This document shows positions 12,201 through 54,800 of a stretch of DNA of 64,000 nucleotides, one piece after another (the first letter of the stretch is position 1; each line of letters opens with the position of its first letter). The notes under the pieces are model-generated. The model was given only the letters and a program-made list of their open reading frames with translations. It was not told the origin of the DNA and did no database searches. A program made the position numbers and the translations under genes. The stretch covers positions 1 to 64,000 of the IMG/VR virus record IMGVR_UViG_3300008963_000003. One strand, written 5' to 3'. The stretch comes from a virus.

Positions 12201-14731
12201 CCACTGTGTTGCACAAATGTTCGTCCAAATTGAGCTACTGGTCCTATATCTCGTAAATTGTTTGATCCTGGCTGAGCTCCTTCAAAGTTATTTGCTTCAA
12301 TTACAATACTGCCAACATGATCATTTACTTGTCCTAAAGTAAATTCTACTATATTTTCATTTAATGGATTTTTTTCAAAATTATGCGGTGTCTCATAATA
12401 TCCATTTTGGTTTTTTGGTGTATCGCTTAAGGTTTTTATAAGAACTACACTGTTTTGATTTATATTTTCATTAAATTTAATAACTTTTTGATGGTTTACA
12501 TTCAATAATATATAATCGTCATCTAACTTTTGAAGCTGATTATCAATATATACAACAACTTTTAAATCCGAAATTTCAGCCGAATTATTATATACATCAA
12601 TAGGAAAATTATTTACAATTTCGTTTCCGTAAAACTGTCTAATTACATATTGATTGCTTTTTTTATTTGCTTTAGACCAACCATTTACAAATTCAAAAGA
12701 ATCACCAAAATTATCATATTTTTTTATAAATGCATTATCACTGCGTATTACAGCAGGCTGGTTTATTTCTTCGTAGGCGTAACTTTCATTTAATAGATTA
12801 AATTCAAAAGTAATATCACCAGTATTTTGTATATTCTTATATACAAGCGGGAATCCTAATTCAGTATCTGCTAAACCTTCGCCGGTTTTATAAGAAAATA
12901 TTTTATTACCTTTGAAATCTGTATTTTGATATATTGTACTATCTGAAAAACTTGCACCATTATTGTCGAACAATTCAAACAATGGAGGTTGATTTAATTT
13001 ATTTTTATCTTGTGCTTGTGTCCATTCTGAACCATTATACCAAAACATATTACCTGCATTAGCGGATCCTAGTTTTACAAGTACAGTTTGATTTTCAACA
13101 GGTTCCGAATCTTCGGTTTCTATTAAACTAATTTGCTGATTGTTTTTAAATGTAATTAATTTTACCTCGAAAATTTTTCCATAAACAAAAGTGTCATTGT
13201 CGCCTAAGAATAATATTCTCATCCCGTCTGCAATTTTTACACCGTCAACATAATAATCCGATGAACCTTCAATTTTACTAAACACATCGTCACAAAAAGT
13301 ATCAACTAAATCAACATTATCTTTTGCACTTGTGCCGTGATTATACAGTTTAAGACCGGCTTCGAACTCGATTATTGGTCTTTTTGCTCTTAAAGACTGA
13401 TCAATCTCAACAGGTTGATTGTTAATTTCAGCACTTTTATTAATTACATCGATATGAAACCATCTATTGTATCTCGACCAACTATTTCTGTCTGCACTGG
13501 ATCTATTAATAACAATATAATCTTTGGTTCCTGCAAAACTTAAGGCGTCACTAAACGGAACTCTGTCAAATCCGTTATCATCAAAAGGAACTTTAGTATC
13601 TTGTGTGAATATAGCAGGTACTTCTAGATTGTTTATTGGAACCAATTTTATCGATTCGCCGACACCTTCAACATAAAAAAGACCAGTTTCATATTTTTTA
13701 GGTGTTACTGTACCTTGAAAATACACTTTCATTCCATTTGAAAAACTCCAGCCTTGTGAAGTAGTATATGTCTTTTTTCCTATTATTTCATTTTCAACAT
13801 CAATTACACTGTTTTCTTCAATGTTTGCTATTTCTATAGAACAGCTTACATTTAGATCGAACTGACTTACAAAATACAGTGTATCTGGTGCATTATCAGG
13901 AACCGTAAATTGTAATATTCCGTTTTCCACAAAACCTTCATTGACAAATTGGTTAACGTTTTCTAAAGTATTTTCAACATCATTATGTTGAATTATAACT
14001 CCATCTGTGTATAACGTATTGTTTATTAGACTAGTAGTTTGCTCTCTTGGCTCTGGTTTTGTGCTTCTATTAACAGCAATGCTGATTGGATCGCCGTCGG
14101 TGTTTACTTCAAACCTATATGTTTGTCCTCTATACAACTTTAAACGTGGATTGCGTGTTTTACCATCAGGTGTAAACAAAAGAGCAGTGTTGTTATCATC
14201 AACTACTGTTGTAACAGTATAAGTGCTAATAATGCCTCTAGCTTGACCCTGAACTGCTATTTCCTGAGGTCCGTTTGGCAACCAGTAATATTCTCTAAAG
14301 TTAACAAACTTATCAAAATCAATTCTAGGATTCCAAACATAAAATTCTTGACTGTTTAATAAACTGTGATTATCTACAGAACCTCTGTACGATTTTATTA
14401 ATCCTAGATAATCTACATAATCTTTATTATAAAGTATGTTTCCAATTTCATCACGAAACACACTAACTGGATCAAATTGATAATTTCTTCTAGTATTTGA
14501 TATTTCTTCTAAATAATTATCATCAATATTAACAGCTTTAGCTTCTCTTTTACCTACAAATGCATCAATTTTTTCTGCTACACCGTCGCTATTAAATTGA
14601 TCTATTGTAGCATCAAGGAATTTTCTATTAGATTCAGTTCTAAAATATTTAGGTAAAAATTCTGCGCCTTTTTTTGGAGACTTTTTGCCACCTGGTAAAG
14701 GGAAGTCATTTTGATTGTCTTCGTATGCCAT
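6230..14731 (-). CDS. Giant baseplate wedge-region protein, N-terminal part (2833 aa)
   Basis: The ATG at 14731 overlaps the gp6 stop by one base (TAATG), so the two are translationally coupled. The N-terminal 200 residues include FREYYWLPNGP near 145, typical of giant virion proteins of marine T4-like phages as I recall them. The middle is long and beta-rich without catalytic motifs. Residues about 2130-2650 hold repeated FG-GAP/integrin-like blades, for example FGASVEITDDGNYLIVGAP near 2260 and related strands near 2137, 2390, 2577 and 2620, suggesting a beta-propeller. By position it replaces T4 gene 7 (1032 aa) but is far longer. The last residues, after VE (NCGGISV), look like an out-of-frame tail: in the -1 frame the sequence continues as KLWWDLS. 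See the frameshift finding. Confidence 0.7.
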   Translation of the reverse strand: MAYEDNQNDFPLPGGKKSPKKGAEFLPKYFRTESNRKFLDATIDQFNSDGVAEKIDAFVGKREAKAVNIDDNYLEEISNTRRNYQFDPVSVFRDEIGNILYNKDYVDYLGLIKSYRGSVDNHSLLNSQEFYVWNPRIDFDKFVNFREYYWLPNGPQEIAVQGQARGIISTYTVTTVVDDNNTALLFTPDGKTRNPRLKLYRGQTYRFEVNTDGDPISIAVNRSTKPEPREQTTSLINNTLYTDGVIIQHNDVENTLENVNQFVNEGFVENGILQFTVPDNAPDTLYFVSQFDLNVSCSIEIANIEENSVIDVENEIIGKKTYTTSQGWSFSNGMKVYFQGTVTPKKYETGLFYVEGVGESIKLVPINNLEVPAIFTQDTKVPFDDNGFDRVPFSDALSFAGTKDYIVINRSSADRNSWSRYNRWFHIDVINKSAEINNQPVEIDQSLRAKRPIIEFEAGLKLYNHGTSAKDNVDLVDTFCDDVFSKIEGSSDYYVDGVKIADGMRILFLGDNDTFVYGKIFEVKLITFKNNQQISLIETEDSEPVENQTVLVKLGSANAGNMFWYNGSEWTQAQDKNKLNQPPLFELFDNNGASFSDSTIYQNTDFKGNKIFSYKTGEGLADTELGFPLVYKNIQNTGDITFEFNLLNESYAYEEINQPAVIRSDNAFIKKYDNFGDSFEFVNGWSKANKKSNQYVIRQFYGNEIVNNFPIDVYNNSAEISDLKVVVYIDNQLQKLDDDYILLNVNHQKVIKFNENINQNSVVLIKTLSDTPKNQNGYYETPHNFEKNPLNENIVEFTLGQVNDHVGSIVIEANNFEGAQPGSNNLRDIGPVAQFGRTFVQHSGPLNLALYHLASKDANIIDAIKFARNEYAKFKKVFMQTAETLGFDGPVKKHVDRILDEINKDKNSNMPFFSTDMIGIGAAKKLQYTVLNNKNKFYALSKPFDMISVSNKAVTVYVNSIQLVFEQDYIFTPEGFVNILSELNNNDIIEIYEYETTEGCFIPPTPSSLGIYPKYVPEKYFDNTYKTPTDVIRGHDGSINIAYGDFRDDLLLELEKRIFNNIKVEYNSDIFDITDYVGGEFRNTKISDSALNNIMISDFVEWLKKAGDPDYTDNDFLTQSESFTYNYSNSVSPNGKKLPGFWRAVYKQAYDTDRPHTHPWEMLGYTIKPQWWEQQYGPAPYTSDNLILWRDIENGVVNEPGKQPVRLKKYIRAGLLKHLPVDQNGNLLSPLASGYAKEFSYITQRDLQYEFGDQAPTETAWRRSSEYPFSLLSALIIQRPADVLAKIFDCSRINRGLNGDLQYTETGRRIKLSELVFPGSIVNDQNVITSGLVNYIQNYMTSNVKTIYNNYIKELSGLDHQLGFKLAGFTDKSKLNLVLDSRTPSNKGNIFVPKENYDVILTSSSVQELVRYSGIIIEKIDKGYRVKGYDNEDTYFNYFKPIESDNDPNINVGGISESFINWAENRNYVTGKIVRFQQNFYRVITTHTSNDSFELDKFRLLPELPIVGGATATIKKKFETVPSKVNYGKVYTDIQQVVDFILGYGEYLKSIGFEFEYFNRTTEAVENFQQAIREFLFWTTQNWAAGTIITISPAANECKFTRDFYTVQDIYNGFYEYNVLKSDGNVLKTDFTNTVREDGNQFSIVPTNTDDGIYFAKFALIQTEHSVLIDNRTVFNDTIYDPEPGYRQERIRVIGYRTTDWNGTLNIPGFIYDDAKVTEWTPWQDYRIGDLVKYKEFYYSADRDISGSNIFDASNWNRLSERPESTLKPNWDYRAKQFADFYDLDTDNFDSEQQRLAQHLIGYQKRNYLSNIITDDVSQYKFYQGFIQDKGTNNALIKLFDKLGSANKDSLEFFEEWAVRKGQYGAIDQSDEVEYILDEKLFRIEPQLVELVNVVDNTRTDLVFQYPLKDVYVKPKNYDHTPFPVIYSDNNFSKTGGYLNLDQVNFIAKTIDDVLALDIKFVEIGNIIWVPQFKNSWNVFEHIKTDKRITSIERIETGFTAYFDKNINFVPGSIIGIDNINNEINGFHIVKSSTLNSVDIDLNTPLSSESYDFEDSTLGFVSEIASKRVATAEQMNLLINDLGLTPGEKIWVDNIDNKFAVLQNSKIYEQQQEIENAELGNGLFGVGIDTNPNNNVMAVGRPKDNKVYIYTRISDTQEYTLTQTIDSQFNKTLNINGVLLNNPAVVQTSIPHDLSNSDEITISEVVGTTQINEKNYFVKTTAFGNQIELYKDFELTIPVDATGFDAYIKGGVITYGKNFNLSSNFGASVEITDDGNYLIVGAPAASNVKTRYIGLLEQVQGNILEGDIVNDRGTLWRAKIDSPADGSTIDYTLDDWEQVFSIPVDSNGTVSNFKDQGVVQIYEKKLNNRFELLDSFVSVFPSQNEKFGSEIKSAIDVSLKNKLYIKSKKHNGRIYLFEKNENNFGTAADPLYRGTFNPAVKYEQDEIVFYEGLLYSAINTVPKNTGFRGELDWNQIDLNFDRVGYLPYLSDVIDGDSDSTGFTNSTNIADLFDVSTDTNTLVMSSFDTVESITKLAIYKINNGRYQFQETINSTDNLWNTGLAIDSNGSNIAVGDVYNDDKGIDTGRVLIYTYDTEQQSYNLNQTLYPLKGLKNELFGYSLEFNVENKLAVLSLNGKVEETVTFDNNSTFFDNKTTNFNEILKRQNQIYVFEKISDKYIIGEIVDYASYSIDNNGVRTLRDFSNVYSSKLIFKNNHITLSLPNVDYTDDKKGVIFDLRSDRNVKNWKAIGSAKDHVDYDFMKTAFLYDKTTDDLITYLDIIDPIKGKIANPAEQELSYKLYYDPAVYNVGSSNTGTDNPWNSDAVENCGGISV

Positions 14732-17076
14732 TATTGATTGTATCCTCCACCTAATGACTCAGTATTAGTAATAATTATGTTTGTATCCGAGTCACTGCTT
14801 TGTATTCCGGTATTTGGGTCTGATGTTTCTGTAACAATAGCGCCGCTAGCTCTAAGGCGACTAGCAGTAATTGAATCTATTATTTCAACATCGCTTACTA
14901 CTGCTGAACTTACAAAAATTTCATCGTTTTCGCTCTTAATTTCGTATAAACTGCCAAAACTTTGATTAGCATCTCGCGGGACCAAAACTATACTTACAAT
15001 ATCTGGTGCTAAACTGTTAATCAAATATGCTGCTAGTTCACTAAAATAAAAAGTTTCGCCAAAATCCCAATTGTCTAAACTGAAATATTGATTTATTGCA
15101 TTTATAATTCGACTTTTTATATCATTATCGTTGACTACTCTTTCAGGGTTTTTTACAACTTTAAAGACTGCTTGTAAATCAAGATTAGATTTGCTACCAA
15201 ACAATGGTTTGTATTTTACTGGATGATACACTAAATCATCGCTAATACTTTTTATTTTATTAACTTCGCCTCCATAACTTAGGAATAGCTGATCATTGCT
15301 CGGCGGAAGTGGTTTTTGATCAATTCTGTTTTGTAAATAATTTCTAAATGCAATATCATATTGTCTAGTAAGAAGATATACATCTATTAAATTACTGCTG
15401 CTAGGATCAATTCTTGCATTCTCGTCAGCTGCATGACTGTATTCAAATTTTAATAATTCTCTACCAAGAAAAGCCTTATAATCAGTTACAAGGTTCAATT
15501 TTTGGTTTGGTAAATCTAATTTTTTAAATATATCTCTATCGATAATATAAAAAACTGTGCCATTGCTATAATTTGCAAAAGGCTGAGCATTTGATTCTGT
15601 AAGTATAGGAACAATGTTTTCTTGTTCAGCATTTACATAGTTATAAACTTCTGTTTTATTTAAGAATGATTTTTTTTGGAAAATATATCTATCTGTTTGT
15701 GGAAGATTTTCACTGTCCACAATTTGTTTAAATAAATCAGGATCGTCAACTACACCATCTGTATCGCTATCAAAAAAAGTAACTTCGATTTTTTTGCTAT
15801 CAATGTATCCTGCTTGATTTTTAAATTCTTTTGATATTTGCCAAATCCAATCAACTGTAAACGAATCTAAACTGTTTGGTTTATTGTTATTGCTTAATAT
15901 TTTTACTGTATCATTTACAATTTTACCTGTTTTACTGTTATAAATTTTATCTTTGCTGTCAAAAAAGAATCTTGTTTGATCGTTGCTTTCAAAGATATAT
16001 CTTAAACCTCTGCTTTTTATAGTGTAAACTTCGCCATCGGTTTCGAACAACAGTATCCAACTACTGTCTAACTGTTGATTGCTATTGTCTCCTTGTTTTC
16101 CTAAACTAAAATTACTTACTGTATTTAGATTATTGTTTAAAATTACACGCCATTGTCTTTGATTAAAATCATATCTTAAACCAAATGTTTTAAATGAAAA
16201 TATTTGATCAACTACTTGTCGTGTAACATCTGATGAGATTTGATTATTAAATACTGGTATTATTTCTTCTAGTATACTACGCTGAGGTATTATATCATTT
16301 AACACAACTGGACCTAAACCAGTGTCAATATCAACTACAGTTCCTTGGTCATCAACACTTATTACTTTGGTCCACAAATAATTTTTTGATCCTAGATGTG
16401 TTGCCGGTCCAGACATCAAAGTACCGTCAGGCATAAAATGAAATCCTTCAGGTGCTTTAAATTTTAAAAAACTTCCTGGTTCAATAAATTTTAGAATACT
16501 CTGTGTAAAACTACCTATAGTAACTGGTAAATCATTTTCGTCAACAAAATAACCTGTGGTTCTGTTTGTATCTACAGTGGTTTGATTCCAAGATATTCCT
16601 AAATTAACAATTTCTTCATTACGAGGAAATTGATCGTAATAAAAGTTTTTAGTTCGATCGTCTTTTATTATTGGTTCGACAGTATTTCTAATAACAGATT
16701 GTATATCGTTTTTGGAATTAAATTCAAAACTTTGTATATCTTCTATTTGTTCTTTGTAAAGTATACCATCGTTGCCAAATATCAAAGTATTACTATATTT
16801 TCCTGTTGCATCTCTTAGATCAAAATTTCTACTAATACCGCTGGATGTTCTATTAACTGCTTTGGCTTTGACAATTTCTTGAGATATTCCTAATGTTCCT
16901 ACATTGTAATCTTCGCCGGTAATTAGTCTATTCTGTGTATAATAAGTAGCAGGGGCGTTTGCTTTTATACTATTGTTATCTTCACTAGTACTCGCATTTT
17001 CTACAGTTTCTTTTAATTCTAAAATTAAATTAATAGTTTCTCTTTTTCCGTTTCTACTGATATAAGGAATTTGCAC
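14731..17076 (-). CDS. 6: Baseplate wedge protein gp6, C-terminal portion (781 aa)
   Basis: This is the part of gp6 downstream of the first GTG in frame (17076). There is no convincing ribosome-binding site there, and the frame is open upstream without any ATG, GTG or TTG all the way to the in-frame TAA at 17794-17796. It is therefore best read as the continuation of gp6 rather than an independent gene. The start of this part (QIPYISRNG) continues a wedge-protein segment. The C-terminal region around residue 680 (NQYFSLDNWDFGETFYFSEL) resembles the gp6/gpJ-like C-terminal wedge domain. gp6 forms the inner baseplate ring with gp25 and gp53. The stop overlaps the next gene's ATG by one base. 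The acidic tail after about residue 730 is low-complexity. Confidence 0.75.
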   Translation of the reverse strand: MQIPYISRNGKRETINLILELKETVENASTSEDNNSIKANAPATYYTQNRLITGEDYNVGTLGISQEIVKAKAVNRTSSGISRNFDLRDATGKYSNTLIFGNDGILYKEQIEDIQSFEFNSKNDIQSVIRNTVEPIIKDDRTKNFYYDQFPRNEEIVNLGISWNQTTVDTNRTTGYFVDENDLPVTIGSFTQSILKFIEPGSFLKFKAPEGFHFMPDGTLMSGPATHLGSKNYLWTKVISVDDQGTVVDIDTGLGPVVLNDIIPQRSILEEIIPVFNNQISSDVTRQVVDQIFSFKTFGLRYDFNQRQWRVILNNNLNTVSNFSLGKQGDNSNQQLDSSWILLFETDGEVYTIKSRGLRYIFESNDQTRFFFDSKDKIYNSKTGKIVNDTVKILSNNNKPNSLDSFTVDWIWQISKEFKNQAGYIDSKKIEVTFFDSDTDGVVDDPDLFKQIVDSENLPQTDRYIFQKKSFLNKTEVYNYVNAEQENIVPILTESNAQPFANYSNGTVFYIIDRDIFKKLDLPNQKLNLVTDYKAFLGRELLKFEYSHAADENARIDPSSSNLIDVYLLTRQYDIAFRNYLQNRIDQKPLPPSNDQLFLSYGGEVNKIKSISDDLVYHPVKYKPLFGSKSNLDLQAVFKVVKNPERVVNDNDIKSRIINAINQYFSLDNWDFGETFYFSELAAYLINSLAPDIVSIVLVPRDANQSFGSLYEIKSENDEIFVSSAVVSDVEIIDSITASRLRASGAIVTETSDPNTGIQSSDSDTNIIITNTESLGGGYNQ

Positions 17077-17793
17077 ATTTATACCAAATAAATTCTCAGG
17101 TGTAATTTTATAACTGCGATTTGCGCTGGTTCTATAATATATTTTAAATTTACCCTTAGGTAATTCGCCAAATGTACCGTCACTGAATATTAAACTAATT
17201 TTATCATTTATTCTGCTAAGAACACTGTAAATATTTCTAATGTTTCTATTGATACTGTTGTAGATAATATTGTTACCTTCAACACTATCTACTTTGGTCC
17301 ATAGTTCAGTTTCAAAATTATTGCTGTCTAATTTATATAACCAAAGATCGCTGTTATTAATATTATTGGTATCTATGTTAACAACAGTATTAGGAGCAGC
17401 ACTGTTTACTTCAAATGTATTGCTTTGAATAGTACCTTGTCTAAAATGAAAGAAAAATCCAGTATTATTGCTGCCAGATCCTCTACCATCATCTCTATAA
17501 AGAAACGCTAACTGATTTCCTGGATATGGATCTTCTTCAAAAATATTCGAATTATCAAAATTTGTGCTAACAACTTCAAACGCAGTCGAAACACTGTCTA
17601 TGCTTTTTGAAAAATTATATACTGCTAAATTTTGATTAGCACCATTGAATCTATACTGCTCTGTATTGACACCTTGAATATTAGACTTTTTAATTGGTCT
17701 GCCGAACGTATTATTAACTGGTAATCCAGCATTTAATATTTTAACAAACTGTTCAAACCAATTACTATTAGTGCTATCGTTCCATATTACAGT
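17077..17793 (-). pseudogene. 6: Open in-frame gp6 segment between stop and restart
   Basis: These 717 bases (239 codons) on the minus strand contain no stop in the gp6 frame. They translate to TVIWNDSTNSNWFEQFV at the 5' side, then PVNNTFGRPIKKSN, FEVVSTNFDNSNIFEE, LAFLYRDDGRGSGSNNTGFF and FSDGTFGELPKGKFKIYYR, all recognisable as gp6 wedge protein of marine T4-like phages. The segment has no ATG, GTG or TTG codon in frame, so it would not be translated unless the TAA at 17794-17796 is read through, suppressed or a sequence error. I list it separately so the region is not read as empty. Confidence 0.8.
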
Positions 17794-18213
17794 TTAATTA
17801 GCTAAATTAACTCCGTTGCTATCAATTATATCCTCAGTTGTACTAATACTTTCTAGTTTTAACAAACCATTTGCAGGAATATTTCTTTTAGGATTGTAAC
17901 TAAGTAGTCTAGCTAAACGCAGTACTGATTCTCTGCGCTCTGCTGTTTCTATAAAGTTTTCTCGTGCATTAAGATCAGTCCTAAACGCCAAATTTTGACC
18001 AAGGAATGCAATAAGATCAATAAGAGCAAGATATTCTGAACTTTCGATATAATCATTAAAATCTTCAGGGTAATTTTGTCTGATATAATTTATCATAGTT
18101 CGGCGTAAATTATCAAAATCATAACTTTGAAAATCTGCATATTTAAAACTTTGATAAATTCTTTTCCAGTCTTCAGCTAATAGAAGTCTGTTCTGACGTT
18201 CAGTATTTGCCAT
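17794..18213 (-). CDS. 6: Baseplate wedge protein gp6, N-terminal portion (139 aa), truncated by in-frame TAA
   Basis: The ATG at 18213 follows AAGGA at a short spacing and a GATAAATA late box at 18238-18245. The protein carries the strongly conserved gp6 N-terminus: NYIRQNYPEDFNDYIESSEY (about residues 44-63), then LIDLIAFLGQNLAFRTDLNA and ETAERRESVLRLARLL. It ends at TAA (17796-17794) after SNGVNLAN, in the middle of a domain. The distance from this stop to the next restart at 17076 is 720 bp, exactly divisible by three, and the intervening frame is open and gp6-like. The intact gene would span 14731-18213, about 1160 codons, longer than T4 gp6 (660 aa). Confidence 0.85.
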   Translation of the reverse strand: MANTERQNRLLLAEDWKRIYQSFKYADFQSYDFDNLRRTMINYIRQNYPEDFNDYIESSEYLALIDLIAFLGQNLAFRTDLNARENFIETAERRESVLRLARLLSYNPKRNIPANGLLKLESISTTEDIIDSNGVNLAN

Positions 18214-18264: not shown

Positions 18265-18702
18265 CTAAAGTAAACTAGCACTTTGATCAAATCTTAAACG
18301 CAATGTTTCTGATATATTATATGGCAAATATATCAATTCAGCTTCGATTTGAATACCACTTTCAAAAGTATCAATTGTTACACTGTTAACCGAAACTCTT
18401 GGATCGTAGTTTATTATTTGTGTAACGTTTTCAATAATAGCTTCTTTTAAGCTGTCAGTTAATGGATCATACAACACATCCCATATTATTGTTCCAAATT
18501 CAGGATCACTGAGCTTTTCGCCTTGACGTATATGAAAATGATTAATAATATCCTGTTTTATTAAATCTAAATCATATAGATTATAACTTCGGCCTGTTCT
18601 GTTAACTGTGCTGATTCCCCTATACTGTTTTGAAATAGGTCTTTCGGGCACTTTGTCTGCGGTCACTGTTATATTTTTATATAATCTATTATCTGTTGAC
18701 AT
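18265..18702 (-). CDS. 25: Baseplate wedge subunit gp25
   Basis: This 145-aa protein belongs to the gp25-like family. gp25 (homologue of gpW of P2 and TssE of type VI secretion) binds gp6 and gp53 in the inner baseplate and helps start sheath assembly. The family core is visible in the middle: an N-terminal arm, then LYDLDLIKQDIINHFHIRQG near residue 42, KLSDPEFGT near 63 and IIWDVLYDPLT near 73. The C-terminus ends in an Arg-rich beta strand (ETLRLRFDQ). It lies 7 bp after the 307-aa gene and just before gp6, the same neighbourhood as in T4. Length is close to T4 gp25 (132 aa). Confidence 0.9.
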   Translation of the reverse strand: MSTDNRLYKNITVTADKVPERPISKQYRGISTVNRTGRSYNLYDLDLIKQDIINHFHIRQGEKLSDPEFGTIIWDVLYDPLTDSLKEAIIENVTQIINYDPRVSVNSVTIDTFESGIQIEAELIYLPYNISETLRLRFDQSASLL

Positions 18703-25678: not shown

Positions 25679-26692
25679 TTGTTTAAAAAAGCAGCAGTAT
25701 TTACTGACTTACATCTAGGCTTAAAAGGCAACAGCAGAATACATAATCAAGATTGCGAAGATTTTGTTGACTGGTATATTAAAACTGCCAAAGAAAACAA
25801 TTGCGAAACTGGTATTTTTTGCGGTGATTGGAATCACAATCGCAACAGTCTTAACCTTACAACAATGGATACTGGTATTAGGTTACTAGAAAAATTAGGT
25901 TCTGCATTTGAAAAATTTTATCTTTTTGCCGGCAATCACGATTTATATTACAAAGACAAACGTGATATTAAATCCACTGAGTTTGCAAGACATATTCCTG
26001 GCATAACCGTAGTTGATGAAATTTATCAAGAAGGCGATGTTGCACTAGTGCCATGGTTAGTAGGTGATGAATGGAAAAAAGTAGCGAATCTTAAAGAAAA
26101 ATATGTATTTGGTCACTTTGAATTGCCCAGCTTTTACATGAATGCTATGGTTAAAATGCCAGATAACAGCGAGCTTAAGTCAGAACATTTTAAAAATCAA
26201 GAATATGTGTTTTCGGGACATTTTCACAAACGTCAAAATCAAGGCAAAATACACTATATCGGAAACGCTTTTCCTCATAACTATGCTGATACCTGGGACG
26301 ACGAAAGAGGAATGATGATACTAGACCTCGAAAACAGTTCTAGCCCTGAATATGTTAATTGGTCAGATTGTCCAAAGTATAGAACTATTAAACTTTCTCA
26401 GCTAATCGACGAAAAAGATCAATTAATAAAAAATAAAATGTATCTTAGAGTTACATTAGACATTGATGTAAGTTTTGAAGAAGCTAGTATGATCAAAGAA
26501 ACTTTTATAGAAACCTATAAGTGCAGAGAAATTACATTGATTCCACAAAAACACATCGAAGAAGTAAACACAGATTTAGATATTACTCAATTTGAAAGTG
26601 TTGATCAAATTGTTAGCAACGAAATACTTGCAATCGAAAGTGACAGTTTTGACAAATCTACACTTCTTAACATTTATAATGGATTACAATGA
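25679..26692 (+). CDS. 47: Recombination endonuclease subunit gp47 (SbcD/Mre11-like)
   Basis: gp47 is the calcineurin-like metallophosphoesterase subunit of the gp46/gp47 nuclease, which resects ends for recombination-dependent replication and host DNA breakdown. The motifs appear in order: DLHLG (about residues 10-14), GDWNHNR (about 48), AGNHD (about 82), FGHFELP (about 142) and SGHFHKRQ (about 178), supplying the metal-binding Asp, Asn and His residues. The start is TTG at 25679 with GAGG seven bases upstream. Length (337 aa) matches T4 gp47 (339 aa). Its stop overlaps the gp46 ATG by four bases, indicating coupled synthesis of the complex. Confidence 0.93.
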   Translation: MFKKAAVFTDLHLGLKGNSRIHNQDCEDFVDWYIKTAKENNCETGIFCGDWNHNRNSLNLTTMDTGIRLLEKLGSAFEKFYLFAGNHDLYYKDKRDIKSTEFARHIPGITVVDEIYQEGDVALVPWLVGDEWKKVANLKEKYVFGHFELPSFYMNAMVKMPDNSELKSEHFKNQEYVFSGHFHKRQNQGKIHYIGNAFPHNYADTWDDERGMMILDLENSSSPEYVNWSDCPKYRTIKLSQLIDEKDQLIKNKMYLRVTLDIDVSFEEASMIKETFIETYKCREITLIPQKHIEEVNTDLDITQFESVDQIVSNEILAIESDSFDKSTLLNIYNGLQ

Positions 26693-36123: not shown

Positions 36124-36732
36124 ATGTCGGAAAAAGTTGCTTTTGTATTAGGCAATGGTGTTAGTCGAAAGAGCATCAATCCTCAAGACTTAAAAAAACA
36201 TGGAACAGTTTACGGATGCAATGCTCTCTATAGATCCTTTTCGCCTGATTATCTAATAGCAGTTGATACTAAAATGATAAGTGAAATTGTAGATTCGCAA
36301 TACCATTTAACTCATTCTGTTTGGACTAATCCAAACAAATACACTGAAAAAATAAAAGAAATAAATTTGTTTAGACCGAGCAAGGGCTGGAGTAGCGGAC
36401 CAACAGCATTATGGTTAGCTAGCAATCACGGTTATGATACTATCTATATTTTAGGCTTTGATTATGTTGGTCTTGGCAAAAAACACGAATATGTAAATAA
36501 CATTTATTCTGATACAAAAAATTATAAAAAACAGAATGATAGAGCTACTTACTATGGTAATTGGTCTAGGCAAACTGACATGTGTATTAAAAAATTTCCT
36601 AAAACTAAATACATCAGATTACTAGGAGATATAGATTTTATACCCGAACAGTTAAAAACAGTATCTAATTTAACTCACGAATCAATAGAAATTTTTGCAA
36701 AAAAATTTGGTATAAAACCTATAAAATCATAA
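36124..36732 (+). CDS. DUF115/MptE-like enzyme, possible glycosyltransferase, 202 aa
   Basis: The N-terminus shows a Rossmann-like opening, FVLGNGVSRKSINPQDLK (residues 7-24), followed by YGCNALYRSFSPDYLIAVD. A second conserved region, GWSSGPTALWLASNHGYDTI with LGFDYVG, lies near 82-120. This is the pattern of the DUF115 / MptE-like family, related to flagellin Maf and some sialyltransferases and pterin enzymes. The substrate is unknown; virion glycan or lipid modification is a reasonable guess. It sits between gp67-like and the acidic scaffold, where T4 has no such gene, and is followed by a hairpin. It looks like an inserted accessory gene within the head operon. Confidence 0.6.
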   Translation: MSEKVAFVLGNGVSRKSINPQDLKKHGTVYGCNALYRSFSPDYLIAVDTKMISEIVDSQYHLTHSVWTNPNKYTEKIKEINLFRPSKGWSSGPTALWLASNHGYDTIYILGFDYVGLGKKHEYVNNIYSDTKNYKKQNDRATYYGNWSRQTDMCIKKFPKTKYIRLLGDIDFIPEQLKTVSNLTHESIEIFAKKFGIKPIKS

Positions 36733-36769
36733 AACGTGCTGTTTTCAGCCCGTTTAACCCCCTTTTTTT
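36732..36769 (+). terminator. Terminator-like hairpin after the DUF115-like gene
   Basis: AAACG-T-GCTG, loop TTTT, CAGC-C-CGTTT (36732-36755, one mismatch), followed within eight bases by a run of seven T. It overlaps the stop of the upstream gene and would separate it from the late unit starting at 36779. Confidence 0.55.
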
Positions 36770-36778
36770 CTATTAAAT

Positions 36779-36785
36779 GTAAATA
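36779..36785 (+). promoter_or_regulatory. Late promoter box GTAAATA for head scaffold/capsid unit
   Basis: GTAAATA then TAATAGACAG, 34 nt before the preferred ATG at 36820. Keeps the TAAATA core. It follows a terminator, so it probably starts the acidic-protein, gp21, gp22, gp23 transcript. Confidence 0.5.
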
Positions 36786-36819
36786 TAATAGACAGCCTTG
36801 CACAAAACAGGAGAATAAA

Positions 36820-37899
36820 ATGACTGATCGTAACAAATTTGAAGAAATGCTTGAGCGCTTGATTAATGAAGATCGCGAAGGAGCAGAAGATTTATTTCAT
36901 GAGATTGTAGTGGAAAAATCAAGAGATATTTATGAATCTCTTCTCAACGAAGAAGAAGACAGTGACGAAGATAGTGACGAAGATATTGACGAAGCCGAAG
37001 ACATGGACGATGACGAAGATATTGACGAAGCCGAAAACATGGACGATGATGACGAAATGGACGAATCTCTTTTCGGAGAAGCAGATCCTAGTGATGACAT
37101 GTTAAATGATATTTCTATGGACGATGATGACATGGGCATGGACGATGATGACATGGGCATGGACGATGATGACATGGGCATGGACGACGATGACATGGGC
37201 ATGGACGATGATGACACGGGCATGGGCATGGACGATAATGCAGATATCGAAGACACAATGTTAGACATCAAAGACGAACTAGAAAGTCTAAGAGCAAGTC
37301 TTGAAGATGCTATCGGAGATATGGAAGACAGCGATGGCAACGATGACATGGACATGGATGCCGATGCAGGCATGGATGTGGATGCCGATGACATGGATAT
37401 GGATTTAGACATGGATTCAGGAGATAATGATGCCGATACTGACAGCGGCGACGACGATACTGATGACGACGACGATGATGTAAAAGAAGGTTCTTACAAA
37501 AAAAAGAACAAGAAATCAAGCAGTGAAGAAATGCGCGAGTATGTAGAAAAAATCCAAGGCGGCGAATTAGGATCAAATATCGGCGGCGATAACGGAAATA
37601 ACACAAAAAGCACAGTAGCAGGTAAAAATGATATGGGCGGCACAACTCAAAATATTGCACGCGCAGATTCAGAAAACGGTGTTGAAGCAAACAAAGGACA
37701 GCTACAAGGTTCATCACTGTCAGACGGATCTCCAAAGGACATGAATACAGGAAATATTAATGTTCCAGGAGGCAAAGCTGGTAAGACTGCATTTAAAAAG
37801 TCTGAACCAGGTCATGGCGCCGAAAAGAAAGGCAAGCCAGATACTGCCGATAAAAGTGCAACTAGCACACTTAACAAAGTAAGCAGTCGCGCAAAATAA
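36820..37899 (+). CDS. Acidic prohead core/scaffold protein with MDDDDMG repeats, 359 aa
   Basis: I start at ATG 36820, which has CAGGAG eight bases upstream; a further in-frame ATG at 36736 lies inside the terminator. The first 40 residues (MTDRNKFEEMLERLINEDRE) are helical. A very acidic Asp/Glu/Met stretch of about 170 residues follows, including five tandem 21-bp units at 37117-37221 encoding MDDDDMG (last unit MDDDDTG) and an earlier 36-bp-type repeat. The C-terminal half is Lys/Gly/Asn-rich. It lies just before the prohead protease, where T4 has the core protein gp68. Composition fits a scaffold degraded during head maturation, like other head-core proteins. Homology to gp68 is not clear; assembly-core role is inferred. 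Confidence 0.6.
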   Translation: MTDRNKFEEMLERLINEDREGAEDLFHEIVVEKSRDIYESLLNEEEDSDEDSDEDIDEAEDMDDDEDIDEAENMDDDDEMDESLFGEADPSDDMLNDISMDDDDMGMDDDDMGMDDDDMGMDDDDMGMDDDDTGMGMDDNADIEDTMLDIKDELESLRASLEDAIGDMEDSDGNDDMDMDADAGMDVDADDMDMDLDMDSGDNDADTDSGDDDTDDDDDDVKEGSYKKKNKKSSSEEMREYVEKIQGGELGSNIGGDNGNNTKSTVAGKNDMGGTTQNIARADSENGVEANKGQLQGSSLSDGSPKDMNTGNINVPGGKAGKTAFKKSEPGHGAEKKGKPDTADKSATSTLNKVSSRAK

Positions 37900-37920
37900 G
37901 GCAAGAAAGAAAGGCCAACT

Positions 37921-38544
37921 ATGAAAACACTAAATGAACATTTGAGTTTCGACCAGGCTAAGATGGTAGTTGAGTCTGCTAATGACGGGAAAGACTTGTA
38001 TATGAAAGGTATTTGTATACAAGGCGGAGTACGCAACGCAAATCAGCGTGTATATCCTGTAAATGAAATTGGCAGGGCTGTCAAAACTCTCAACGAACAA
38101 GTAACCAGCGGATACTCAGTGTTAGGTGAAGTAGATCATCCAGACGGCCTTAACATTAATCTTGACCGTGTAAGTCATATGATCACAGAAATGTGGATGG
38201 ATGGCCCAAACGGATATGGAAAAATGAAAATTCTACCAACCCCGATGGGACAACTAGTTAAAACAATGCTTGAAAGCGGCGTAAAACTTGGTGTCTCATC
38301 GCGAGGTTCTGGAAACGTAAAAGAAGACGGAAGCGGTGAAGTTTCCGATTTTGAAATAATCACTGTGGACGTTGTGGCTCAGCCCAGCGCCCCTGGTGCA
38401 TATCCTACACCAATCTACGAGCATCTAATGAATGCACGTGGCGGATATAAGGCATACGAATTAGCACAGGCAACACAACACGACGACAAGGCACAAAAGT
38501 ATTTAAAAGAGAGCTTATTAAAAATAATAAGCGGACTCCGCTAA
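37921..38544 (+). CDS. 21: Prohead core protease gp21
   Basis: gp21 is the serine protease that cleaves the scaffold and trims the capsid protein (peptidase family U9/S80 fold). The N-terminus reads MKTLNEHLSFDQAKMV. Conserved residues appear in GEVDHPDGLNINLDRVSHMI (about 63-82, with the candidate catalytic His in DHPD) and in VKLGVSSRGSG (about 121, with the candidate catalytic Ser), then FEIITVDVVAQPSAPGAYP near 143. Length (207 aa) matches T4 gp21 (212 aa). It lies between the acidic protein and gp22, as expected for the T4 head cluster. AAAGG sits before the ATG. Confidence 0.93.
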   Translation: MKTLNEHLSFDQAKMVVESANDGKDLYMKGICIQGGVRNANQRVYPVNEIGRAVKTLNEQVTSGYSVLGEVDHPDGLNINLDRVSHMITEMWMDGPNGYGKMKILPTPMGQLVKTMLESGVKLGVSSRGSGNVKEDGSGEVSDFEIITVDVVAQPSAPGAYPTPIYEHLMNARGGYKAYELAQATQHDDKAQKYLKESLLKIISGLR

Positions 38545-38559
38545 CGAGGAGAGGATAAC

Positions 38560-39654
38560 ATGTTAGATGCACTAAAATCACTCTTTGAAAACAATGTACT
38601 TTCAGAAGAAGTGCGCTCAGAACTTGAAGAAGCATGGAACAAAAAGGTGAAAGAAAATCGCCTTGCTGTAACTGCTGAATTACGCGAAGAATTTGCTCAA
38701 AAGTACGAACACGACAAAAAAACAATGGTAGAATCTATTGATAAAATGTTAAGTGAACGTCTTGCAGAAGAAATTGCAGAATTCAAAGAAGATCGCAAAC
38801 AATTAGCAGAAGCAAAAGCAAAATATGCTGTTGCACAACGCAAAAATGCAAATCTTCTTAAAAATTTTGTTAGTGAAACACTGGCAAAAGAAATCAAAGA
38901 ACTACATGCTGATCAAAAATCAACAGCTGACAAGTTTGTTGCACTTGAAGATTTTGTAGTTGAGGCACTTTCAAAAGAAATCGCAGAGTTTTACGAAGAT
39001 AAAAAAGATTTGGCCGAAACCAAGGTAAGACTTGTAAAAGAAGCCAGACAGAATTTTGATAGAGTACAAAAAGACTTTATCAAAAAAAGTTCTGCTATAG
39101 TGTCTGAAACAGTGTCAACAAATCTCAATAAAGAAATTTCGTCACTGAAGGAAGACATTGAAGAAGCACGCAGAAACGACTTTGGACGTAAGATATTTGA
39201 AGCATTTTCAAATGAATATACTCAAAGCTATCTTAACGAAAAGTCTGAAACAGCTAAATTGATGAAAGTTGTTGAATCAAAAGACCAGCAACTGATTCAA
39301 GCAAAACAGGCAGCGTCCAAGGCAATTAATCTTGCAGAATCAAAGACCAACGAGATCAAAAAAATCAATGAGTCAATGAAACGCAAAGAAACTATAAATG
39401 AACTTACTGCTCCTTTATCAAGAGAGCAAAGTGAGATTATGAAAGATCTACTGGAATCAGTTCAAACAAACAGACTTCGCTCTGCGTTTGACAAGTACCT
39501 ACCATCAGTGATGAATGGTAACAGTCCAGAAAGACAGAAGGCAGTATTAGCAGAAGGCACAGAAATCACAGGCAACAGACAACAAACAAATGACAATAAA
39601 AATGCTAACGACGGAAATGTAGTTGAGTTACGCCGTCTAGCTGGATTGAGTTAA
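38560..39654 (+). CDS. 22: Prohead core scaffold protein gp22
   Basis: gp22 is the major scaffold around which gp23 assembles and which gp21 later destroys. The 364-aa sequence is nearly all charged coiled coil (Glu/Lys/Ala-rich), with the marine gp22 start MLDALKSLFENNVLSEEVRS and a conserved C-terminal half containing RNDFGRKIFEAFSNEYTQSY near 208. It ends in a short low-complexity tail and VVELRRLAGLS. T4 gp22 is 269 aa. GGAGAGG precedes the ATG, and the gene is followed 11 bp later by gp23. Placement between protease and capsid gene is the T4 arrangement. Confidence 0.9.
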   Translation: MLDALKSLFENNVLSEEVRSELEEAWNKKVKENRLAVTAELREEFAQKYEHDKKTMVESIDKMLSERLAEEIAEFKEDRKQLAEAKAKYAVAQRKNANLLKNFVSETLAKEIKELHADQKSTADKFVALEDFVVEALSKEIAEFYEDKKDLAETKVRLVKEARQNFDRVQKDFIKKSSAIVSETVSTNLNKEISSLKEDIEEARRNDFGRKIFEAFSNEYTQSYLNEKSETAKLMKVVESKDQQLIQAKQAASKAINLAESKTNEIKKINESMKRKETINELTAPLSREQSEIMKDLLESVQTNRLRSAFDKYLPSVMNGNSPERQKAVLAEGTEITGNRQQTNDNKNANDGNVVELRRLAGLS

Positions 39655-51862: not shown

Positions 51863-54800
51863 ATGGCAACTAAAATCAAACACAAGCGCAGCAGTGTGGC
51901 TGGTAAACAGCCACTGGTTTCACAGTTAGATTCAGGTGAACTAGCTCTTAATACAGCAGACGGAAAAGTTTACTTACTACGCGATGACAACACTGTTCAA
52001 GATATTACTAAAAAAGTTTTTGAAGGTGATACCAGTGTACAAGTTGACGATCTCGGTACTCCTGAAACTGCACAAGTTAGTGTTACAGTAAACAATGACG
52101 ATAAAATGATTGTCACTGACAGTCAAACTAATATAAACCAAGATGTTACTATTGAAAATGCCAAAACTCTTACATTTAAAGAATTAATTGCCGGCGGTAA
52201 TGACGGAGTATCAATTAAAGCACCGGATGTGCTTGATAGTGGATATCAGCTTACACTGCCTCCTACCAACGGTACAATTGGTCAATTAGTTAAAACCGAC
52301 GGCGAGGGTAATTTAGAATTTACAGATTCAGATATTTTTGGCGGCAATGTTATCTATGTAAGTGCTGAACAAGGTGACGATGCAAATGATGGACAAAGTG
52401 CACCGGTAAAAACAGTAAAGCGTGCATGTCAAATAGCATCAGGTTTAGTATACAATCCTGACGGTACTACAAATGGAACAAGAATAAATGTTAAAGTTGC
52501 TGTTGGAGATTATCCTGAGGATAACCCAGTTATTGTTCCTGATAATGTTGTTATCAAAGGCGATGGGCTTCGTGGATGTATTATAAGACCAAAAAATGCA
52601 AACCTTGACATGCTTCGTGTACGAAATGCATGTTATTTTGGTGAATTTACTTTTAGAGACGGAATTGATACTAACTTTGTTCCTCTTATAACATTTGATT
52701 ATGCTGTTGCATTTGACGATCCAAGCGCAACTGATGTTACAGATAGAAATCTATACACTAACTTACCAGATACTAAACCAACAATTACTACATCTCCGTA
52801 TATACAAAACTGTTCAATTATTTCGTTCCTAGGCGGAAACGGTGCAAAAATTGACGGTAGTAAAGTTGAATCGCCAAACGTTCCTCGATTTGGTATTGAA
52901 GCAGAAAATCCTGTAATAGGTGCTATACCTGAACAAGGTAAGTCAATGGTTGCTAACGCCTTTACTATTCTTTCTTTTGGCGGAACAGCTTGGCGACTAA
53001 CCAATGATGCATATGCACAGATTGTTAGCTGCTTCGAAATTTTCCTACTTAACGGTGTTTATTGTCAAAGCGGTGGATATTGTTCTATTACTAACTCGGC
53101 TACTAACTTTGGATTGTATGCCTTGCGTGCAAGTGGATATTCTCCAAAAGCCTTTAATTTTGATAGAAGTTTTGTTACAGCAACAGGCGAAGCTGACGGT
53201 AAACAAACAGTATCAATCGTTGGTGTAAACAGATCCGCACCAGTTGAAGAATTTGTATTACGCTTCCGCGAACCAGATTATAAAATTGCACATGATTTGC
53301 TTTTGTTAAACAGAGATGCTATTGCAGCTGATACAGTAACTTGGATTAACGACCAAATAACAAATGCCACTGCTAGTATTTGGTCAGGATTTACATACAA
53401 TGAAGATATCTATAGAAAAAACATAAGAGATTTTATTGATTCAATTAGATATGATGTAATATTTAATAGTAATTACAGATCAATTAGTGCTGCATTAAGA
53501 TATCATTATAATTCCAACAGTTTTGAATTATACAATGATGTAGATCAAATAGTAGCATCATTAACACAGGCAAAAACCTATACTGCAAATTATCTATCAG
53601 ATGCAACTGCTATTAGTAGATCTAATGCATTGTGGGATGAAATTATTGACATAATTCAAAACGGTGTCTCTGCTGCCGATGTGTACAGTTTTCCTGATCC
53701 TACAGGTGGAGTTGATAACGCTAGCGATACTGGATTTGCAAACGCTAGAGATCAAGTAGTTGCTAATAAAAATTTTATAATTGACGAAATAACCAGCTGG
53801 ATAGACGATCAAATTACTCAGCAAAACGCTCCATTTACTGCTGGATTTACTTACAATGAAGCAAAATGTGCTAGAGATGTTGGATTAATTATAGATGCAC
53901 TAATATATGATTTAACATACGGCGGCAATCTTCAAACATACGAAGCAGCACTTGCATATTTTGTAGATGGTGTGGCACAATACGGTAACGGAGAACTCGA
54001 AGAAACTGTTGCTGCATACGAAAGACTCAAAACTGTTATTGAGCAAGTTATAGTAGAAACTGATGTTGTAATATCTTCCGGAACTACTGAAACGCAAGAT
54101 AAAACAGGCACACCTGGCAGTGTTGATGCACAAGATTTTGCAGGAAATAGAATACAAGAAATAATTGATTATCTTAATGATCCATCTACTGAACCAACAA
54201 GATTTGAACCAGATGTGTCTTGGGTAAGTGCAAACTTACAAACTGCATATAACGAAGTTGATCTAGAAGGTCAAGTCAACATTGCACAAAACGTAACACA
54301 GTGGATGAATCAACAAATACAAGCTAATATTTGGGGTAATTTTGCTTATGATGAATCCAAATGCGAAAGAGACACACGTTTAATTGTCGAAGCAGTAGCA
54401 AAAGATACTTGGGATACAGGAAATAGATTTTCAAGAAGTGCTGGACTTTCATATTATACTAGAAACCTACAAGACTCAAGTCAAATAAGTATCAGCGGCC
54501 AAGAATTGCAAACTATAGCAGCAATTGAACAAGCAGCAGTGTATGCAAATACATATATTACTGATTTATCAGTTAATGTACAAGATTTTGTAAACAGTAG
54601 ATTTGATATTGTTACAACAATTATCAATGATCCCAATGATTTACCTGAACCAACTGAAGTAAGTTCAGCTGGAGATATTACAAATGACTTTAAACCTACT
54701 CCTGTTGAAACACTTTTCAACGCTGAGACTGACGTTAGCACAATTAGTAATGTAATTACAATTGTTGATCATGGTTTTTCAAATGGACAAAAATTAATTT

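Follow-up and report, generated by a model that had tools for sequence, protein, structure and literature searches.

An isolated in-frame TAA in the gp6-type baseplate wedge gene of a metagenomic phage

The gp6-type wedge subunits of PHROG 10646 are annotated in the Pseudomonas phage PA5oct group and in Agrobacterium phage Atu_ph07. The gene described here belongs to this family, with a profile match that covers its N-terminal and central parts, and both parts of its interrupted frame match the family in order. It also resembles the baseplate wedge gene of PA5oct-like phages at the DNA level, with approximately 67% similarity over 54% of the queried stretch. Unlike its PHROG 10646 relatives, it carries a stop at one codon, in this record alone. 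Annotated phage records contain only distant matches to the region and no near-identical one, and the relatives recovered from them are phages of 284–490 kb. A search of the literature returned nothing specific.

The interrupted gp6 frame

The window, the whole stretch of DNA analysed here, comprises positions 1 to 64,000 of the 65,084-base IMG/VR record IMGVR_UViG_3300008963_000003, in which the region of interest is single-copy. The gp6-type baseplate wedge gene lies on the minus strand (14731–18213), and our reading of this frame agrees with an earlier note on the sequence, which had described it as open for about 1160 codons but for one TAA. The TAA is codon 140 (17794–17796). The 139 amino acids that precede it (17797–18213), the product if the stop is real, match positions 1–139 of PHROG 10646, 'baseplate wedge subunit' (E = 3.5e-63), and the 1020 codons 3′ of it (14734–17793) match positions 141–844 (E = 6.4e-225). 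Because the two halves adjoin in the family profile, gp6 is one gene in which one codon has been swapped, with no insertion and no loss. Immediately upstream, a gene at 18265–18702 matches GPW_gp25 (PF04965, E = 6e-08) as well as baseplate wedge PHROGs, and gp6 thus sits in a baseplate gene cluster with a gp25-like gene upstream.

The first ATG, GTG or TTG 3′ of the TAA in the gp6 frame is a GTG at 17076 (codon 380), leaving 239 codons without an ordinary start; the earlier description of this stretch as startless and yet gp6-like holds, given that the parts on both sides of the stop match the family. The 781-amino-acid ORF that opens at this GTG (14731–17076, minus strand) is the downstream portion of gp6 and no separate gene, the corresponding frame being continuous over 1158–1160 amino acids in the sister phage and the near-identical contig introduced below. 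Gene callers would nonetheless split gp6 into ORFs of 139 and 781 amino acids. Ribosome-binding-site-like context in front of the near-cognate codons ATT, ATC and ATA was considered as a means of downstream restart; between codons 262 and 358 there are a few weak candidates, none of which restores the full-length protein.

The same interrupted frame is the sole point in favour of an intein, an intron or RNA-level repair that removes or corrects the TAA, as the earlier note had proposed among its options. The gene has no inserted residues relative to intact 1160-amino-acid copies, its length equalling that of the near-identical contig, which excludes an intein or intron, and in the family profile the first half ends at position 139 and the second begins at 141. 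U-to-C editing would be needless, as relatives already have the C in their DNA. We consider this group of explanations vanishingly improbable.

Codon 140 in near-identical and related sequences

The closest sequence to the window is a viral contig (L002; whole contig L082, IMG/VR 3300026094_001119) that aligns without indels over 10,617 bases, three of which are substituted (99.97% identity). One of the three falls in codon 140, which is CAA (Gln) in the contig and TAA in the window; the change is C-to-T on the coding strand, or G-to-A on the plus strand at 17796. The remaining two are silent third-position changes in a neighbouring gene of 2833 codons, and the gp6 of the contig runs uninterrupted for 1160 amino acids. 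When the site was searched as a pattern with the changed position open to any base, the viral contigs gave this CAA contig only and the species genomes gave none; it is the one near-identical contig that covers codon 140. Judging from the long window on the one hand and several short 3300026094 contigs on the other, the two sequences appear to come from different metagenome assemblies.

Two further contigs from the assembly of L002 provide the background against which this change can be read. L083 differs from the window at one position in 5,055 bases, silently, and L229 at four in 7,103 bases, three of them silent and one a Ser/Ala exchange. Together with L002, this amounts to 8 differences in approximately 22.8 kb with no indels (6 silent, 1 missense and 1 nonsense), which indicates that both assemblies sample nearly the same phage population. 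The TAA is the sole gene-breaking difference among the eight. As a separate observation, all four differences in L229 lie in a 95-base stretch (26086–26180) inside an SbcD-like nuclease gene (25679–26692, plus strand), a clustering for which recombination or a mixture of strains in one of the assemblies may be responsible.

The next relative after L002 is a sister phage (L003) with 83% DNA identity over gp6, and it too has CAA at codon 140. An IMG/VR scan that used the portion of gp6 3′ of the stop as query yielded 80 relatives, 78 of which, L002 and L003 included, span codon 140. Their residues at this position are Q (41), R (20), K (5), T (5), I (3), V (2), S (1) and A (1), and none of the 78 has a stop there or elsewhere in the aligned gp6. 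The comparison with related phages for which the earlier note had called thus gives a sense codon in 78 of 78 cases.

These comparisons also bear on readthrough, in which programmed or leaky decoding of the TAA would yield a short 139-amino-acid product and a little full-length gp6. The protein frame does go on past the stop, and a hairpin is predicted 3′ of it, yet this hairpin is unexceptional (z = −1.31; 19 of 200 shuffled sequences fold equally well). Against readthrough, the TAA is unique to this record, and the CAA copy is identical to the window for kilobases around codon 140, so that no readthrough signal arose with the stop. The suggestion in the earlier note that the codon is read through therefore finds a stop that is not conserved, surroundings that have not co-varied with it and a codon that ends most genes here; we regard it as very unlikely.

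Elsewhere in the window, four successive ORFs in the same frame, with a single TAA between each, extend over 36124–39654 (plus strand) and include the head maturation protease. They were considered as further cases of readthrough and rejected, as each ORF after the first has a start codon of its own and the four match different families or none; they appear to be separate genes. The ORF at 36124–36729 (plus strand, 202 amino acids), located in the head gene cluster between the portal and the protease, has a weak match to the sialyltransferase-type PHROG 4603. The ORF at 36736–37896 (plus strand), just 5′ of the head maturation protease, is highly acidic, with tandem DDDDMGM repeats and no PHROG match. 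Its listed start is a GTG, but translation probably begins instead at the ATG of 'MTDRNKFEEML'.

Constraint on gp6 and the use of TAA

Ratios of nonsynonymous to synonymous change between gp6 and its counterpart in the sister phage are 0.007 for codons 1–139, 0.017 for codons 141–378 and 0.061 for the rest, rough values given that synonymous sites are near saturation. On the evidence of these ratios, strong purifying selection has acted on gp6 as a full-length protein, startless stretch included. Such selection would make the stop new on that timescale, or absent altogether. Transitions that create a stop account for about 80 of the 3480 possible in gp6, and a single event of this kind needs no special cause.

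A suppressor tRNA or altered code, in the phage or its host, would read the TAA as an amino acid and restore full-length gp6, which is intact apart from this codon. The 65-kb record is a piece of a probably much larger genome, and a suppressor tRNA could sit elsewhere in it; a tRNA search found no tRNA gene within the window. The use of TAA in the window speaks against suppression or reassignment: it terminates 24 of the 30 genes considered, and past a terminal TAA there is usually another in-frame stop no more than a few dozen codons away, or else a separate gene. As opposed to the recurrent in-frame stops in many genes that reassignment would entail, gp6 is the only gene with a recognised homologue that has an internal stop in the parts that can be compared with the sister phage. 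The other stops in that comparison, on our reading, lie either in leaders that precede a start codon or in frames that are spurious, being antisense or overlapping. With CAA at codon 140 in the near-identical contig as well, decoding of the TAA as sense is highly improbable. We give similarly little credence to a lineage in which an essential structural gene has newly acquired the TAA and which owes its survival to a suppressor outside the 65 kb or in the host.

The sister phage differs from the window in a further respect. At 53609–54280 (plus strand), in a gene of 3579 amino acids, the sister frame matches in two parts that overlap at sister coordinates 491–590, from which it follows that the window carries approximately 670 or more extra bases, apparently with a repeated domain.

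Origin of the TAA

The TAA is almost certainly an isolated C-to-T change, CAA to TAA at gp6 codon 140, that represents either an error in the consensus or a nonsense allele of recent origin in a defective or minority genome. The earlier note had listed a sequencing or strain mutation among its options, and this one is borne out by the sense codon in the near-identical contig and in every relative that spans the site. A single transition would have turned the Gln codon into a stop in a presumably essential baseplate wedge gene. As an error, the TAA would have entered the assembled consensus through the reads, PCR or assembly; as an allele, it would be genuine and very recent, and would belong to a phage genome that is defective or a minority in the population. 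A genome with such an allele would make the 139-amino-acid fragment and no baseplate, unless a co-infecting intact phage complements it. The seven other, mostly silent, differences are true micro-diversity between the two assemblies, which makes a real variant plausible. Because gp6 is presumably essential, we lean slightly towards an error, or a minority variant picked by the assembler.

The gp6 TAA is accordingly an isolated base difference, and neither a biological feature nor a new decoding mechanism. When a phage gene from a metagenome shows a lone in-frame stop, near-identical contigs should be checked before recoding is proposed. In all respects compared, the case matches the sporadic nonsense changes of assembled viral genomes, in that a single transition, absent from a near-identical sequence, interrupts a gene under purifying selection; we see no difference between them.
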